A stretch of DNA of 52,254 nt from an uncultured Candidatus Saccharibacteria bacterium (GTDB taxonomy: Bacteria > Patescibacteriota > Saccharimonadia > Saccharimonadales > Saccharimonadaceae). Where the stretch lies: NCBI GenBank assembly GCA_947165975.1, contig CAMVCL010000006.1, positions 1 through 52,254 of the forward strand, written 5' to 3'. A program made the position numbers and the translations under genes. The notes under the pieces were generated by a model. It ran no database searches. It was not told the origin of the DNA and was given only the letters and a program-made list of their open reading frames with translations. Every line of letters begins with the position of its first letter. Position 1 is the stretch's first letter. Shown piece by piece: positions 2,878 to 50,535 of the stretch.

Positions 2878-4145
2878 TGAACCCCCATGTTTTCAGTTTT
2901 ATCTCTGTTAAATCGGACAAATGTCCACTTCTTATAAATTAACGATTTGCTGGGTTTAGGCAGTAATTTTTTTATTATAATTCTTTTCGTATACATCTGG
3001 TGCGACGTACCTTAGACGTTCATGTGATCTTCCAGAGTTATACCATTCAACATATGTTTCTACTCGTTCTCTAAGTTCCCTGAAAGAACTAGGGTAGTCA
3101 TCACGGATTAATGACTCACGTTTTAGGGTGTTAAAGAAAGACTCTGCTACTGCATTGTCATGAGGAATTCCTGGTCTGGAATAAGAGTGCTCTACTTTTC
3201 GTTCTGACAGCATCTTATTAAAGCTGTATGAGGTATAGATTGCTCCATTGTCCGAATGAACAGTTAATGATTTTGGTTGTCTGTCGCTGTAAGCCTTGAT
3301 AAATGCCCTTTTAATTAATTGGACACTACTATTCCTGCCGACGCTATATCCCACGACTTTCCTAGAGAATAGATCAATAAAAACACATACGTAATAATAA
3401 TGATTATGAATACAGACTGCCGTTACATCACTGACCCATACTTGGTTTGGGGCTTCCGGTTTAAACTTTTGGCTAGACTGAGCTGCTTGACGCATATTTC
3501 TAACAATAATTCTATGGTTCTTGTTGCTAGGGTTTCTTACGCTATTTAAGCCATTTTTAACCATGATTTTACGAACATATTTGGCGGAAACTGGTCTGCC
3601 GTTCTTTCGCATAATAGCTGCTATCTTTTTCCCACCATAAACATTTCCACTATCTTCAAATATTTTATTGATAATTTCTGCATATTCAGCTTCACGCTTA
3701 ATGAACCATGCATCTTCATTTTTATTGCGATATTTGTGGTTTAGATATGTTGCCCGGTTTACACCAAGAGCTTCACATTGCACTTTTAGGCTTTCCTTAC
3801 CATATTCGTTGTCTATGATTCGCATTCGTTCTCTGAGTGGCATTTGATTAGTTACGGTGCGATGTAAGAAATCTAATTCTGCCTCAACTTTCTGTGTATG
3901 ACTAATCATACGGGTGATATTAATAGGTTTTTCTTTTTTAATATTTGCTAGGATTATGCTTTCCTTAGGATAATCTGTGATCCATTTATAGAGGGTACTA
4001 TGAGCAATATGATAATCACGACATAGAGTATTAGCAGACTCTCCCTCATAGTAAAGTTGTAGAATCTTATATTTTTTATTAGTGTTTATTCTTCTTTTCA
4101 TTCATACATTATATGACACTTAATGAAAAGAAGGATGGGCTTTCA
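2878..4145 (-). mobile_element. IS3-family insertion sequence (about 1.27 kb)
   Basis: Proposed ends are TGAACCCCCAT (from 2878) and, on the other strand, TGAAAGCCCAT (to 4145): an 11-base terminal inverted repeat with two mismatches, and TG...CA ends as usual in this family. A further TTTTCA matches just inside each end. The single transposase gene fills the element. No target duplication is visible (flanks GAGATC and GTGTGAT), so the insertion is old or its flanks were rearranged. The ends are a by-eye estimate. Confidence 0.6.
2956..4101 (-). CDS. IS3-family transposase, single continuous frame
   Basis: The 381-residue protein has an N-terminal helix-turn-helix (residues 1-45: ILQLYYEGESANTLCRDY..STLYKWI), a central HTH_21-like segment (about 130-190, VYGGKKIAAIMRKNGRPVS), and a DDE integrase core: D in WVSDVTAV, D in HSDNGAIYTS, and E in DNAVAESFFNTLKRE. 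In most IS3 elements the HTH (orfA) and integrase (orfB) are in two frames joined by -1 slippage; here they are fused in one. The start is supported by TATAAT six bases upstream (4108-4113), giving a leaderless message. All three catalytic residues are present, so it may be active. Confidence 0.92.
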   Translation of the reverse strand: MKRRINTNKKYKILQLYYEGESANTLCRDYHIAHSTLYKWITDYPKESIILANIKKEKPINITRMISHTQKVEAELDFLHRTVTNQMPLRERMRIIDNEYGKESLKVQCEALGVNRATYLNHKYRNKNEDAWFIKREAEYAEIINKIFEDSGNVYGGKKIAAIMRKNGRPVSAKYVRKIMVKNGLNSVRNPSNKNHRIIVRNMRQAAQSSQKFKPEAPNQVWVSDVTAVCIHNHYYYVCVFIDLFSRKVVGYSVGRNSSVQLIKRAFIKAYSDRQPKSLTVHSDNGAIYTSYSFNKMLSERKVEHSYSRPGIPHDNAVAESFFNTLKRESLIRDDYPSSFRELRERVETYVEWYNSGRSHERLRYVAPDVYEKNYNKKITA

Positions 4146-16011: not shown

Positions 16012-16040
16012 TTGCGTGAAAGAAGTATTTGCGGTATGAT
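16012..16040 (+). promoter_or_regulatory. Promoter that fixes the start of the SufS-like gene
   Basis: TTGCGT (16012-16017), 17-base spacer, TATGAT (16035-16040). The codons at 16012-16047 are therefore promoter, and translation most likely begins at ATG 16048, 7 bases after the -10. Confidence 0.65.
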
Positions 16041-16047
16041 TAAACGT

Positions 16048-17211
16048 ATGAACGAATTTGATTATTTAGGTGAAAAAGATATTTATCTTGATTCCGCATG
16101 CCAAAGCCTGCGCCCACGTCCGGTCATTGAAGCAATTAATGCTTATTACACAAAGCATAATTCTTGTGGTGAACGTGTTAAATATAAGTGGGGTATCGAA
16201 ACTGACGAGAAAGTCGAAGCCACACGTAAAAAAGTTATTAAATTTTTAAAATTACCGGCTCGTAAATATACTGTTTCTTTTACGCTTAACACAACTTATG
16301 GCATCAATCTTATACTGAGTCAATTAAATCCAAAGCATTTTAAAAAGATCATGACTAGTGAAATCGAGCACAATTCGCCATTCTTAAGCTCAATTGCCTT
16401 TAGTCAACGCACTAAATTGCCACGTGAAGTAATGAAACGCGAGGAAGATGGTTCGATTGATTTAGATGACTACAACTTCGAGAAGGCAGTTGTAGTGGTT
16501 AATTGTGCCTCAAATTTTGATGGCAGAAAATTACTGAACATCAAAGAACTTACCAAGGCCGTGCATAAAGCTGGGGGCATCCTAATTATTGACGCAGCAC
16601 AAGCTATGGCACATTCTACCGATATAATCAGGAACGTCGAAGTTGATGCAATTTGTTTTTCAGCACACAAATTATACGCTCCGTCACTAGGCGTAATCGT
16701 CTGGCAAAGCGACCTAGCCGAAAAGATGGATGTCGGTTTTGTGGGCGGCGGCATGGTAGATGACGTTAACAAAGATTCTTATCTATTATCTGCAGAAGGG
16801 AAGGAACATCGTTATACAAGGTTTGAAGCTGGTTTGCAGGCTTGGGGTGAGATTGTTGGATTCGGCGCCGCACTTGATTGGCTAAATGGCGTATCCAAAA
16901 AGGATTGGAAAAATCTGGAAGACAACACCAGGGAATTATATGACTTTCTAGATAGCTCCGACAAAGTTCGTCTAGTCAATCGCGAAGCAAATCCTACTAT
17001 GTCTTTCTATGTAGAGGGTATCGACTCGCATATGCTTGGTAATGCTTTGTCGCGTGATAATATTATGGCTCGTACTGGATATTTTTGTGCGCATTATTAT
17101 TTAGACCATGTAATGAAGTTTCCACCGTTAATTAGATTTTCTCTTGGTTTACACAACCGACCTAAGGATATTGAAATAGTCAAAAACGAATTATCGAAAA
17201 TTGTTAAATAA
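16048..17211 (+). CDS. Class V aminotransferase, SufS/CsdA-like cysteine desulfurase
   Basis: 387 residues from ATG 16048 (MNEFDYLGEKDIYLDSACQS). PLP-enzyme blocks: FTLNTTYGINLI (about 75), the EIEHNSPF segment (about 110), IIDAAQAMAH (Asp binds the PLP ring nitrogen, about 182), FSAHKLYAPS (Schiff-base Lys, about 207), and GYFCAHYY near residue 350, whose Cys would carry the persulfide. Such enzymes supply sulfur for Fe-S clusters or tRNA thiolation. No SufU, SufE or IscU partner is adjacent, so the acceptor is unknown. A second desulfurase of the IscS/NifS branch lies at 49276-50535. Confidence 0.82.
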   Translation: MNEFDYLGEKDIYLDSACQSLRPRPVIEAINAYYTKHNSCGERVKYKWGIETDEKVEATRKKVIKFLKLPARKYTVSFTLNTTYGINLILSQLNPKHFKKIMTSEIEHNSPFLSSIAFSQRTKLPREVMKREEDGSIDLDDYNFEKAVVVVNCASNFDGRKLLNIKELTKAVHKAGGILIIDAAQAMAHSTDIIRNVEVDAICFSAHKLYAPSLGVIVWQSDLAEKMDVGFVGGGMVDDVNKDSYLLSAEGKEHRYTRFEAGLQAWGEIVGFGAALDWLNGVSKKDWKNLEDNTRELYDFLDSSDKVRLVNREANPTMSFYVEGIDSHMLGNALSRDNIMARTGYFCAHYYLDHVMKFPPLIRFSLGLHNRPKDIEIVKNELSKIVK

Positions 17212-34711: not shown

Positions 34712-35907
34712 ATCAGCATCGAATCTCCATAGCTCAGGAAGTTGTATTTTTCGGCAATAGCGTGCTCGTAGGCATTCTTTAGATGACCCCAACCGGCGAA
34801 GGCGGAAGCGAGCATCAGAACGGTGGATTTGGGGGCGTGATAATTTGTAATGAGGCCATCAATTACTTTAAAATCGAAACCAGGGTAGATAAAAATATCG
34901 TCTTCGCCACTAGTTTTACCAGTCTTACCGTAGTATTCTAAGGTCCTGGCGACAGTGGTGCCGAGAGCGATTACCCTTCCTGATGATTGAGGCGAGAAAA
35001 ACTCTTTCGAGGAGCCTTTGCGAGGACGGCGAGCAAGGGGAGTGACCGAAGCCCGTGACGACGGGCCTGAGGGAGCGTTCCGAGAAAGACGTTTTTTCGC
35101 CTCAATAATAGCGGCAATGGTGTCGTCTGGGATATTGAACCATTCGGAGTGCATCTTGTGGTCTTCGATATTGTCGGAACGAATGGGAAGAAAAGTACCA
35201 AGGCCGACATGCAGAGTGAGGTACTTGACAATAACGCCTTTTTGCTTGAGTCGGTCCAATAAATCTTCCGTCATATTGAGCGATGCGGTTGGAGCGGCGG
35301 CGGAACCCATATGCTTAGCCCAGACGGTCTGGTAGCGCTTTTTGTCAGATTCGGTGGCGTCGCGATGGAGATATGGTGGCAAGGGAACTGTACCGTATTT
35401 CTCGGCAAGATCAGCGAGTGGCGTATCGGATTCGACTTCGGCGATACCGTTACCCACGATATGCTTGATGAGGATTCTTTCTCGAAACATTCCCTCAGGC
35501 TTGTCGCCACGGACTTCAGACGCCCCTGTTGCTCGCCGTCCTCGCAAAGGCTCCTCGAAAGAACCATCATCGAGCGTTTTATCCGTTATAGTTAAAATAT
35601 CCCCATCGTGGAGTTTACCGCGGTACATGACACGTTGAGGTTCGTCGCCATGTTTTTCCAATACTACGAGCTCGCGCTGACGGCCATCGGGTAGAGTACA
35701 AAATAGGCGGGATTGCATGACACGAGTGTCGTTTAGAATCAATACGTCACCGGGGTTTAAGAATTCGTCCAGATTGCGGTAATAAGAATCAGTGATATCG
35801 CCAGTCTGACGGTCCAGTACTAATAGGCGTGACGAACCACGTTCCTTGGGAGGGAATTTAGCAATGCGCTCATCTGGTAGGTCATAATTATAATCTGAAA
35901 CTAGCAT
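34705..35907 (-). CDS. queA: S-adenosylmethionine:tRNA ribosyltransferase-isomerase with two palindromic inserts
   Basis: 400 residues against about 340-350 usually. Core motifs are normal: DYNYDLPDERIAKFPPKERG, NPGDVLILNDTRVMQSRLF, TVPLPPYLHR, YQTVWAKHMGSAAAPTASLN, TLHVGLGTFLPIRSDNIEDH, MHSEWF, FIYPGFDFKVIDGLITNYH, and SYGDSML near the end. The excess comes from two inserts encoding Arg/Pro/Ser-rich sequence: about residues 112-148 (EEPLRGRRATGASEV...), and about 269-304 (LSRNAPSGPSSRASVT...), the latter splitting the AKKR/GRVIALGTT block. Both inserts are copies of one repeat and keep the frame. QueA converts preQ1-tRNA to epoxyqueuosine-tRNA. Predicted leaderless (TATAAT at 35916-35921). 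Confidence 0.93.
   Translation of the reverse strand: MLVSDYNYDLPDERIAKFPPKERGSSRLLVLDRQTGDITDSYYRNLDEFLNPGDVLILNDTRVMQSRLFCTLPDGRQRELVVLEKHGDEPQRVMYRGKLHDGDILTITDKTLDDGSFEEPLRGRRATGASEVRGDKPEGMFRERILIKHIVGNGIAEVESDTPLADLAEKYGTVPLPPYLHRDATESDKKRYQTVWAKHMGSAAAPTASLNMTEDLLDRLKQKGVIVKYLTLHVGLGTFLPIRSDNIEDHKMHSEWFNIPDDTIAAIIEAKKRLSRNAPSGPSSRASVTPLARRPRKGSSKEFFSPQSSGRVIALGTTVARTLEYYGKTGKTSGEDDIFIYPGFDFKVIDGLITNYHAPKSTVLMLASAFAGWGHLKNAYEHAIAEKYNFLSYGDSMLIC
34986..35105 (-). repeat. Palindromic coding insert, copy A (in queA, sense)
   Basis: Outer inverted repeat of 23-24 nt: 34986-35008 (ATTGAGGCGAGAAAAACTCT...) against the complement of 35082-35105 (ATTGAGGCGAAAAAACGTCT...), with one mismatch, one indel and few differences. 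Core: hairpin GCCCGT-GACG-ACGGGC at 35051-35066 (perfect 6 bp) and hairpin 35015-35038 (CCTTTGC / GCAAGG). Coding frame reads IEAKK-R [insert] ...FFSPQSS-GRVIA. About 85% identical to copy B over the 87-base core. Confidence 0.88.
35463..35575 (+). repeat. Palindromic coding insert, copy B (in queA, antisense)
   Basis: Outer inverted repeat of 19 nt with three mismatches: 35463-35481 (GCTTGATGAGGATTCTTTC) against the complement of 35557-35575 (GCTCGATGATGGTTCTTTC). The core is the reverse complement of the queA sense orientation. It aligns without gaps to copy A; 34 bases around the second hairpin (TTGC 35529-35532 / GCAA 35544-35547) are identical. The first hairpin (35499-35514) has decayed to partial pairing. 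Confidence 0.86.
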
Positions 35908-49256: not shown

Positions 49257-49275
49257 ATATGTTATAATATTGTTT

Positions 49276-50535
49276 ATGATATATCTTGACCATGCGGCGG
49301 CGACGCCGGTTTCTGCTAAAGTATTAGAGGCAATGCAGCCGTATTTTGGTGTTGATTTTTTTAATCCTTCGGCCGCTTATCTGCCAGCAAAAAAAGTGGC
49401 AGCAGATTACGAAAAGGCTAAGGGCGTAATTGCTCATGCGATAGGGGCCAAAGCATCTGATCTTATTATCACAGCTGGAGCAACTGAAGCAAATAATTTA
49501 GCATTTACGGCCGTGTATGATTATAAGAGCGCAGGATCAGATGTCTCTCGGCACGCTCCTTCGCGCCCGTCTTCACGGGGCTCAGTCGCTACTACGTGCC
49601 CCCAGCCGGTTGCGCACTGCCTCAAGACATCTGATTCCTGCGCACACATACTCTATCTAACAACAGAGCACGACTCAGTTCGCCAGGTAGCGGAAGGCCT
49701 TGGTGGTATAGCTATCAATGTATTACCGAATGGGTTAATTGATTTAAAAGATCTGCAAGCCAAGATTACTGATGATACTCAATTGATATCGGTCTCATTA
49801 GTAAATAATGAACTTGGGACGATCCAGCCCTTAGCGGAGATCGCGGAGATTGTTCGAACAACCAAGATCGACCGAATGAAACGGGGAATAAAAACACAAT
49901 TATTACTACACTCTGATGCTTCTCAAGCTTTAAATTTACTGGATATTAATGTAGCAAGATTAGGCGTAGACTTATTGACACTGAATGCCGCCAAGGTTTA
50001 TGGTCCGAAGGGTGTGGGAGCTTTATATGTTTCACATAATGCAAGACTTCGCCCGTTGGTGGTGGGCGGTGGACAGGAAAAGGGTTTGCGCTCAGGGACC
50101 GAAAATGTGCCTGGAGTGATAGGATTTGCGAAGGCAGTAGAACTAGCTAAGGAACATTTGAATGGAAACCGAAAAAAATACGCCTTGTGGCGAAAATCTT
50201 TATTATCGGAACTAAAAGATTATGAGCTAATCAATAAAAAGCATTGTTTGGATAATTTTGTAGTTGTGAGTTTCCCGGGACTTGATGCAGAAAGGCTAAT
50301 ATTCTTGCTCGAAGAAAAAAATGTATATGTAGCGACCGGAGCAGCTTGCGCAGCGTCAAAGGGTGAAAAGTCGCACGTATTAAAAGCGATTGGGTTGTCA
50401 GACCTGCAGATTGCTGGATCACTTCGCCTGACTCTAGGTGAAACAAACACCGAAGAACAAATACGTGACGCCGCAAGAATTATTAATGATGTTGTTTCTT
50501 TGGAGCATAGGAGAATCAATAAAAATAAGGATTAA
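49276..50535 (+). CDS. Cysteine desulfurase (IscS/NifS type) with palindromic insert
   Basis: 419 residues from ATG 49276 (MIYLDHAAATPVSAKVLEAM); TTG 49270 lies too close to the -10 box. Blocks: TAGATEANNLAF, LTTEHDSVRQVAEGL, SVSLVNNELGTIQPLAEIAE, LLHSDASQAL (Asp), LTLNAAKVYGPKGVGALYV (PLP Lys), GGGQEKGLRSGTENVPGVIG, and VATGAACAASKGEKSHVLKA with the active-site Cys. Residues about 88-126 (SAGSDVSRHAPSRPSSRGSV...) are an insert absent from IscS homologues, made by the repeat at 49529-49643. Provides sulfur for tRNA or Fe-S. No IscU gene is adjacent. Confidence 0.92.
   Translation: MIYLDHAAATPVSAKVLEAMQPYFGVDFFNPSAAYLPAKKVAADYEKAKGVIAHAIGAKASDLIITAGATEANNLAFTAVYDYKSAGSDVSRHAPSRPSSRGSVATTCPQPVAHCLKTSDSCAHILYLTTEHDSVRQVAEGLGGIAINVLPNGLIDLKDLQAKITDDTQLISVSLVNNELGTIQPLAEIAEIVRTTKIDRMKRGIKTQLLLHSDASQALNLLDINVARLGVDLLTLNAAKVYGPKGVGALYVSHNARLRPLVVGGGQEKGLRSGTENVPGVIGFAKAVELAKEHLNGNRKKYALWRKSLLSELKDYELINKKHCLDNFVVVSFPGLDAERLIFLLEEKNVYVATGAACAASKGEKSHVLKAIGLSDLQIAGSLRLTLGETNTEEQIRDAARIINDVVSLEHRRINKNKD
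49529..49643 (+). repeat. Palindromic coding insert, copy C (in the cysteine desulfurase gene, sense)
   Basis: Outer inverted repeat: GCGCAGGATCAGATGTCT (49529-49546) against AGACATCTGATTCCTGCGC (49625-49643), perfect except one extra base. Core begins CTCGGCACGCTCC, about 78% identical to copy A over the first 46 bases, and translates in the same frame (SRHAPSRPSSRGSV against SRNAPSGPSSRASV). Hairpin 1 is perfect: CCCGT-CTTC-ACGGG (49566-49579). Hairpin 2 has GTGC (49596-49599) / GCAC (49614-49617). Confidence 0.85.

Follow-up and report, generated by a model that had tools for sequence, protein, structure and literature searches.

The palindromic elements of Rickettsia and Wolbachia are dispersed hairpins of about 105-150 bp that lie in frame in unrelated conserved genes (PMC2229807, PMC10969869). 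Several families of these Rickettsia palindromic elements (RPEs) occur in one genus, the enzyme that mobilises them is unknown (PMC2229807, PMC10969869), and each has been reported with a conserved peptide (PMC10969869). Nematomorph mitochondrial genes contain inverted repeats whose arms are place-specific yet matched, and these have been gained and lost repeatedly (PMC6649704). The byp elements of Magnusiomyces mitochondria, which are associated with translational bypassing, are likewise hairpins inserted within coding genes (cited in PMC6649704). The prokaryotic MITEs NEMIS, RUP, ERIC, and YPAL are small, non-autonomous inverted-repeat elements that are sometimes fused in frame to genes (PMC2229807).

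The window analyzed here comprises 52,254 nt of a contig from an uncultured gut Candidatus Saccharibacteria bacterium (CAMVCL010000006.1). It carries copies A, B, and C of a palindromic element, with the following features:

49270..50535, plus strand: host gene of insert C, an IscS/NifS-type cysteine desulfurase (Aminotran_5), from the open reading frame list, Pfam, and PDB phmmer
49529..49643, plus strand: insert C, palindromic element with its arms, 115 nt, in frame
49529..49546, plus strand: left arm of C, GCGCAGGATCAGATGTCT, with the outer 8 nt, GCGCAGGA, beyond the bulge
49566..49579, plus strand: core hairpin of C, CCCGTCTTCACGGG, a variant of the family motif CCCGTCGTYACGGG
49625..49643, plus strand: right arm of C, AGACATCTGATTCCTGCGC, which pairs with the left arm apart from a 1-nt bulge
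34986..35106, minus strand: copy A with its arms in queA, core strand the same as the gene strand
35476..35562, plus strand: copy B, also in this queA gene, with its core on the strand opposite the gene

The desulfurase, 419-421 aa long, starts at TTG 49270 or ATG 49276 in the open reading frame list. It matched Pfam PF00266 with 178 bits, and its PDB phmmer match was 4r5f (E 3e-61). Insert C lies in frame between AFTAVYDYK and HILYLTTEHDSV and codes for SAGSDVSRHAPSRPSSRGSVATTCPQPVAHCLKTSDSCA, about 38 extra residues; its GC content is 64%, compared to roughly 40-45% in the surroundings. Between the arms GCGCAGGATCAGATGTCT and AGACATCTGATTCCTGCGC there are 18 bp of pairing, interrupted only by a bulged T near 49635. 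The self-complementarity score of the insert was 33, whereas none of 1000 dinucleotide shuffles scored above 23, and its RNA folding z was -5.6. A first-pass annotation, made from the sequence alone, had proposed a 115-bp in-frame insert with a near-perfect outer inverted repeat in this gene, and both claims were confirmed. The phenomenon proved to be larger than claimed: the sharing of one slot by unrelated hairpin families, the copy-specific arms, and the use of all stop-free frames described below go beyond that annotation. It had also raised the possibility that the insert projects from the protein surface. This could not be demonstrated by modeling, as the AlphaFold model (mean pLDDT 47 from a 7-sequence alignment) was unusable, and alignment to solved IscS places the site at a helix-strand connection. 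A second PLP-dependent desulfurase-like (SufS/Csd-like) open reading frame, at 16012-17211 on the plus strand of the window, has no obvious insert.

The core of insert C is related to the queA copies A and B beyond chance. Its similarity score with copy A was 28, while the maximum of 1000 dinucleotide shuffles was 19, and the two peptides share a reading frame (SRHAPSRPSSRGSV in C and SRNAPSGPSSRASV in A). Copies A and B are 85% identical over 87 nt. A BLASTN search of the genome with insert C found no match besides C itself, because C is a diverged copy. With copy A as the query, one more genomic copy was found at G000:C1:9201, and a core pattern search identified an additional one at G000:C1:111833. 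The G000 copies are known only from stretches around matches and the genome count is therefore not exhaustive. An open reading frame on the minus strand of the window (2956-4101), about 30 kb from the queA copies, is IS3-type DDE transposase-like by sequence.

Insert C is a member of a genus-specific family of small, dispersed, and polymorphic palindromic elements. The 14-nt core hairpin motif CCCGTCGTYACGGG was found in 133 of the 174 genomes of the genus, with a maximum of 25 per genome, and the reversed motif, used as a control, had no match in the same 174 genomes. None of 284 sampled genomes from elsewhere in the phylum contained the core motif. When a specific type-1 pattern was searched against 84,980 species genomes, matches were restricted to Saccharibacteria, including ruminant-gut isolates and other uncultured assemblies. 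The same pattern was absent from the IMG/VR viral contigs, and a phage or viral carrier was rejected on this basis. We found no description of such elements in Saccharibacteria in the open-access literature searched; subscription literature was outside our reach.

Across species, one and the same protein slot can be occupied by unrelated hairpin families or have no insert at all. The desulfurase was matched in 172 of the 174 genomes of the genus, and most of these orthologues lack insert C. Among the orthologues whose slot was read, at least 35 had a hairpin insert and 41 were empty; the inserts, belonging to at least five unrelated core families, all had lengths that were multiples of 3 and no stops. 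On a tree built without the insert, about 26 changes between filled and empty were counted, of which at least 12 were forced by supported branches. A few long non-hairpin loops were scored as filled in this count, and one type-2 row was labelled "other". L359 and L385, near-identical strains with 98% identity in the left flank, have different hairpins at a single slot. The L198 sequence is identical to a type-4 insert cut between two GTCC repeats with its left arm remaining as a scar, and this is likely to be a loss of the insert by deletion. Desulfurase orthologues from other families of the order were empty.

Some further occupants of these slots were observed. The type-2 core in the L185 desulfurase is reversed, which suggests an inversion between the arms or an independent insertion. 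A longer, lower-GC palindromic family (roughly 150-270 nt) occupies the desulfurase slot in L194, L196, L202, and L213 and also fills other slots (L133 and L189). The empty desulfurase sites of L198 and L224 keep SLDGS or LDGS codons from the type-4 left arm, consistent with scars of deletion between short direct repeats.

The remaining claims of the first-pass annotation can be judged on these data. Similarity of the core to copy A in the same translated frame held. Its view that the element is dispersed and not a local duplication also held, given the extra genomic copies, the occurrence in 133 of 174 genomes, and the presence or absence at the same site in close relatives. It would have been refuted by a lack of further genomic copies, or by the same insert being native in distant desulfurases. 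Neither is the case, as shown by the copies at G000:C1:9201 and G000:C1:111833 and by the insert-free desulfurases of other families in the order.

Frame and orientation were assessed with 246 copies that have clear arms. Of these, 201 lie inside genes with a frame open across both flanks, and they are divided 62/60/40/23/16 over five frames, with none in the sixth, in which the core always carries a conserved stop. Thus, whichever of the five stop-free frames a genic copy fell into, the reading frame of its gene stays open. When copies were compared with orthologues, the length between the flanks was divisible by 3 in all but one of 996 cases (995), although these comparisons are not independent. 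Since five frames are used, the stop-bearing sixth is avoided, and the gaps are multiples of 3, the frame is selected and the peptide is not. Translation of the insert as an extra surface loop is inferred from this preservation of frame; we have no RNA or protein data. The other 45 copies are outside open gene frames, and only four of them have flanks that match one continuous gene elsewhere. Element copies probably occupy both genes and intergenic DNA.

The arms of each copy complement each other and differ from the arms of other copies. The median complementarity score was 19 for the two arms of one copy versus 6 for arms taken from different copies, and 98% of the own-arm scores were above the 95th percentile of the mismatched scores. 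Of the 39 pairs in ten orthologous type-2 inserts, 20 had changed on both sides; the covariation was 0.445, as against 0.187 after shuffling and no more than 0.096 in the slid controls. In 124 copies, the right arm has a single extra base whose distance from the core hardly varies, and the single bulge of C falls in the same position class. Outward of the bulge, the arms have almost no sequence information but remain complementary over about 8-10 bp; on its inner side lies a weak RAAAT...TTTTC consensus. Copy C fits this plan with GCGCAGGA outward and TCAGATGTC inward. Arms can also travel with the element, because one type-1 subgroup has a constant arm sequence, CGCGAGAATACCC, at many sites.

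Empty orthologues were used to look at the origin of the arms. Both arms as a pair are mostly missing from them (gap near 0). The left-arm residues RDKNVSVR of L369, in a host gene which we take to be leucyl-tRNA synthetase-like from its translated sequence, align with RTDKTINIR of two empty relatives, and the inverted copy took the place of adjoining native residues. Similarly, the left arm of L103 codes for DNQNSV where the empty site natively has DNQNSI, and the left arm of copy A codes for IEAKK, which aligns to native residues in the empty queA orthologues L119 and L272. Over 31 slots, the more native arm was the left in 20 and the right in 6 (p=0.009), and a simpler score gave 21 and 10 (p=0.02); alignment to empty sites exceeds the null for either arm. 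This native-left, inverted-right polarity is of moderate significance and gives moderate support to the idea that the target flank is duplicated in inverted orientation when the element inserts. In the clear cases, the right arm repeats the native left flank in inverted orientation, and this suggests a replication-linked snapback insertion, although this is an inference. No direct target duplication was evident in the filled and empty pairs, whose flanks are too diverged to reveal very short duplications. Copy C has no close empty relative that would reveal which of its arms is native.

Elements of like orientation cluster together, and over long distances their orientation tracks the GC skew of the strand. 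Neighboring copies more than 5 kb apart had the same orientation in 70 cases and different orientations in 17 (p=8e-9). The core strand was on the positive-skew strand for 201 of the 246 copies, including 89 of the 122 whose host gene runs opposite to the core strand and 38 of the 45 outside gene frames. Relative to the host gene, 79 copies were sense and 122 antisense. Because orientation follows GC skew, coupling of insertion to replication is indicated, with the limitation that these are draft genomes in which the origin and terminus are unmapped.

Further hairpins of 75 and 33 nt were observed in L386, L388, and L397 within the core motif, between CCCGTC and GTYACGGG, with a similar case in L029. 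Two different host copies carry the 75-nt kind at an identical position. Because hairpins nest in the core loop, hairpin loops appear to be landing sites themselves.

Arm mismatches were also counted by strand. On the mRNA strand there were 32 G-U and 41 A-C mismatches, and since G-U is not the commoner of the two, there is no sign of maintained RNA pairing. On the core strand, 47 GT versus 116 AC mismatches were found over the arms, and 26 of each in the outer 10 bp. Strand-specific wobble was considered as evidence for a single-stranded DNA or RNA intermediate and was dropped, as the bias comes only from the inner arm, which is common by descent.

No mobilising agent was identified. Y1_Tnp/RAYT transposases were found in 8 of 174 genomes and are absent from G000; a REP/RAYT (Y1 transposase) system was therefore rejected as the universal agent. 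Reverse transcriptases (RVT_1) were found in 98 of 174 genomes, but G003 (12 copies) had no match and G122, G158, and G113 (19-25 copies) were not among the matching genomes. A reverse transcriptase was thus also rejected as the universal agent, since several high-copy genomes lack a match. The reverse transcriptases in these 98 genomes are about 380 aa long and are possibly diversity-generating retroelements. A known structured RNA family was excluded, as the best Rfam match overlapping an element reached 27 bits against a gathering score of 35. Integron attC sites were excluded because there are no conserved GTT/AAC boxes and the outer ends are almost without conserved bases; the integrase was outside the search.

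We favor the interpretation that these are likely RPE-like, non-autonomous mobile DNA elements that insert by replication-coupled snapback, are tolerated only where they lie in frame within surface loops, and are translated, with the mobilising enzyme unidentified. In this view, the unit of mobility would be the DNA hairpin and insertion would be coupled to replication, both of which are inferred. The element would join behind a native flank, after which its self-complementary end would snap back and copy about 10-20 nt of that flank inverted, giving copy-specific arms. The new inverted arm would often replace a few native codons, and the insert would be translated as an added surface loop. 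Frame-breaking or core-disrupting insertions would be removed by selection. Copies may be lost through deletion across the hairpin, and the loops of existing copies may receive further hairpins. The agent would act in trans, a role that neither Y1 transposases nor reverse transcriptases suit. A bolder reading, which we lean slightly against, is that this mobile DNA represents a new class in which each insertion makes the ends afresh. A hairpin element would be copied in at a replication fork and snap back to give an inverted duplicate of the target flank, so that structure and not end sequence defines the element and unrelated cores are moved by one cellular process. If that were true, the proteins of a whole genus would be constantly re-looped by one process.

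The alternative that survives best is quasi-palindrome correction, which remains possible. Here, template switching in the hairpin keeps the arms complementary and the palindrome grows outward, so the arms would not be made at insertion. The copy-specific arms agree with this, as does the even split of mismatch types (26 versus 26) over the outer 10 bp, and such correction has been proposed for the nematomorph mitochondrial coding palindromes (PMC6649704). However, in the close relatives L362 and L373, which have an insertion in common, the arms gain one-sided mismatches, bulges persist, and the native arm lies more often on one side of the element than on the other, which is not expected of a symmetric process.

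Less probable is an element acting at the RNA level (in regulation, RNase protection, or ribosome bypass or excision), where the mRNA needs the hairpin and the arms covary through selection for RNA pairing. The strong folding of insert C (z -5.6), the compensatory pairs in orthologous inserts, and the recurring positions of the bulges could be explained in this way. Against it are the lack of a G-U excess on the mRNA strand (32 versus 41 A-C), the mixed orientation relative to genes, and the 45 of 246 copies outside an open gene frame. In addition, bypass or splicing needs neither lengths in multiples of 3 nor avoidance of the stop frame, and no hairpin matched Rfam at the gathering score.

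A classical MITE that depends on a transposase, has variable terminal repeats, and makes direct target duplications is also doubtful. The elements are small, non-autonomous, and dispersed with inverted ends, as this would predict, but the terminal repeats beyond the bulge are almost without common sequence, direct duplication was not evident in the filled and empty comparisons, and the Y1 transposase, the best hairpin candidate, is in only 8 of 174 genomes. Finally, a native clade-specific loop extension selected for its peptide would account for an in-frame insert in a tolerant loop, but is very unlikely given that different genes read the same DNA in five frames and that unrelated peptides occupy the same slot in sister genomes.

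Snapback insertion of an RPE-like element, our preferred reading, can be set against the known systems. The byp elements stay untranslated, while the frame and stop statistics of the Saccharibacteria elements point to translation. NEMIS, RUP, ERIC, and YPAL have common terminal repeats and mostly direct target duplications, in contrast to the copy-specific outer ends seen here; the requirement of a MITE for shared terminal inverted repeats was not met by ends almost without common sequence, although resident transposons were not individually surveyed. The nematomorph coding palindromes are similar in their matched, place-specific arms inside genes and their repeated gain and loss. They differ in that both arms code for conserved protein, the repeats are perfect, and there is no mobile core, whereas the Saccharibacteria elements have a family-specific core and bulges, and the hairpin is an added loop. 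Arms coding for conserved native protein on both sides were not found here, since the arms are largely missing from empty orthologues.

The closest likeness is to the Rickettsia and Wolbachia elements, and rests on dispersed in-frame hairpins with several families per genus. This is an analogy drawn from papers, without sequence comparison. The defining property of an RPE, a dispersed palindrome of about 100-150 bp in frame in unrelated genes, is met; a conserved peptide in one frame is not, as five frames are used and the sixth is blocked by a stop. The Saccharibacteria elements also belong to a different phylum and have complementary, copy-specific arms, their unrelated families share slots, their orientation follows skew, and hairpins nest in the core loop. 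Protein-coding palindromic elements have so far been an oddity of Rickettsia and Wolbachia with an unknown mechanism. This Saccharibacteria genus provides a second, independent, and much richer system, with 174 species genomes, many filled and empty pairs, nesting, and deletion scars, in which an enzyme surface loop is filled, emptied, and refilled within one genus with unrelated, inferred peptides of 20-70 residues. The origin and spread of coding palindromes thus become directly testable in these ultra-small bacteria.
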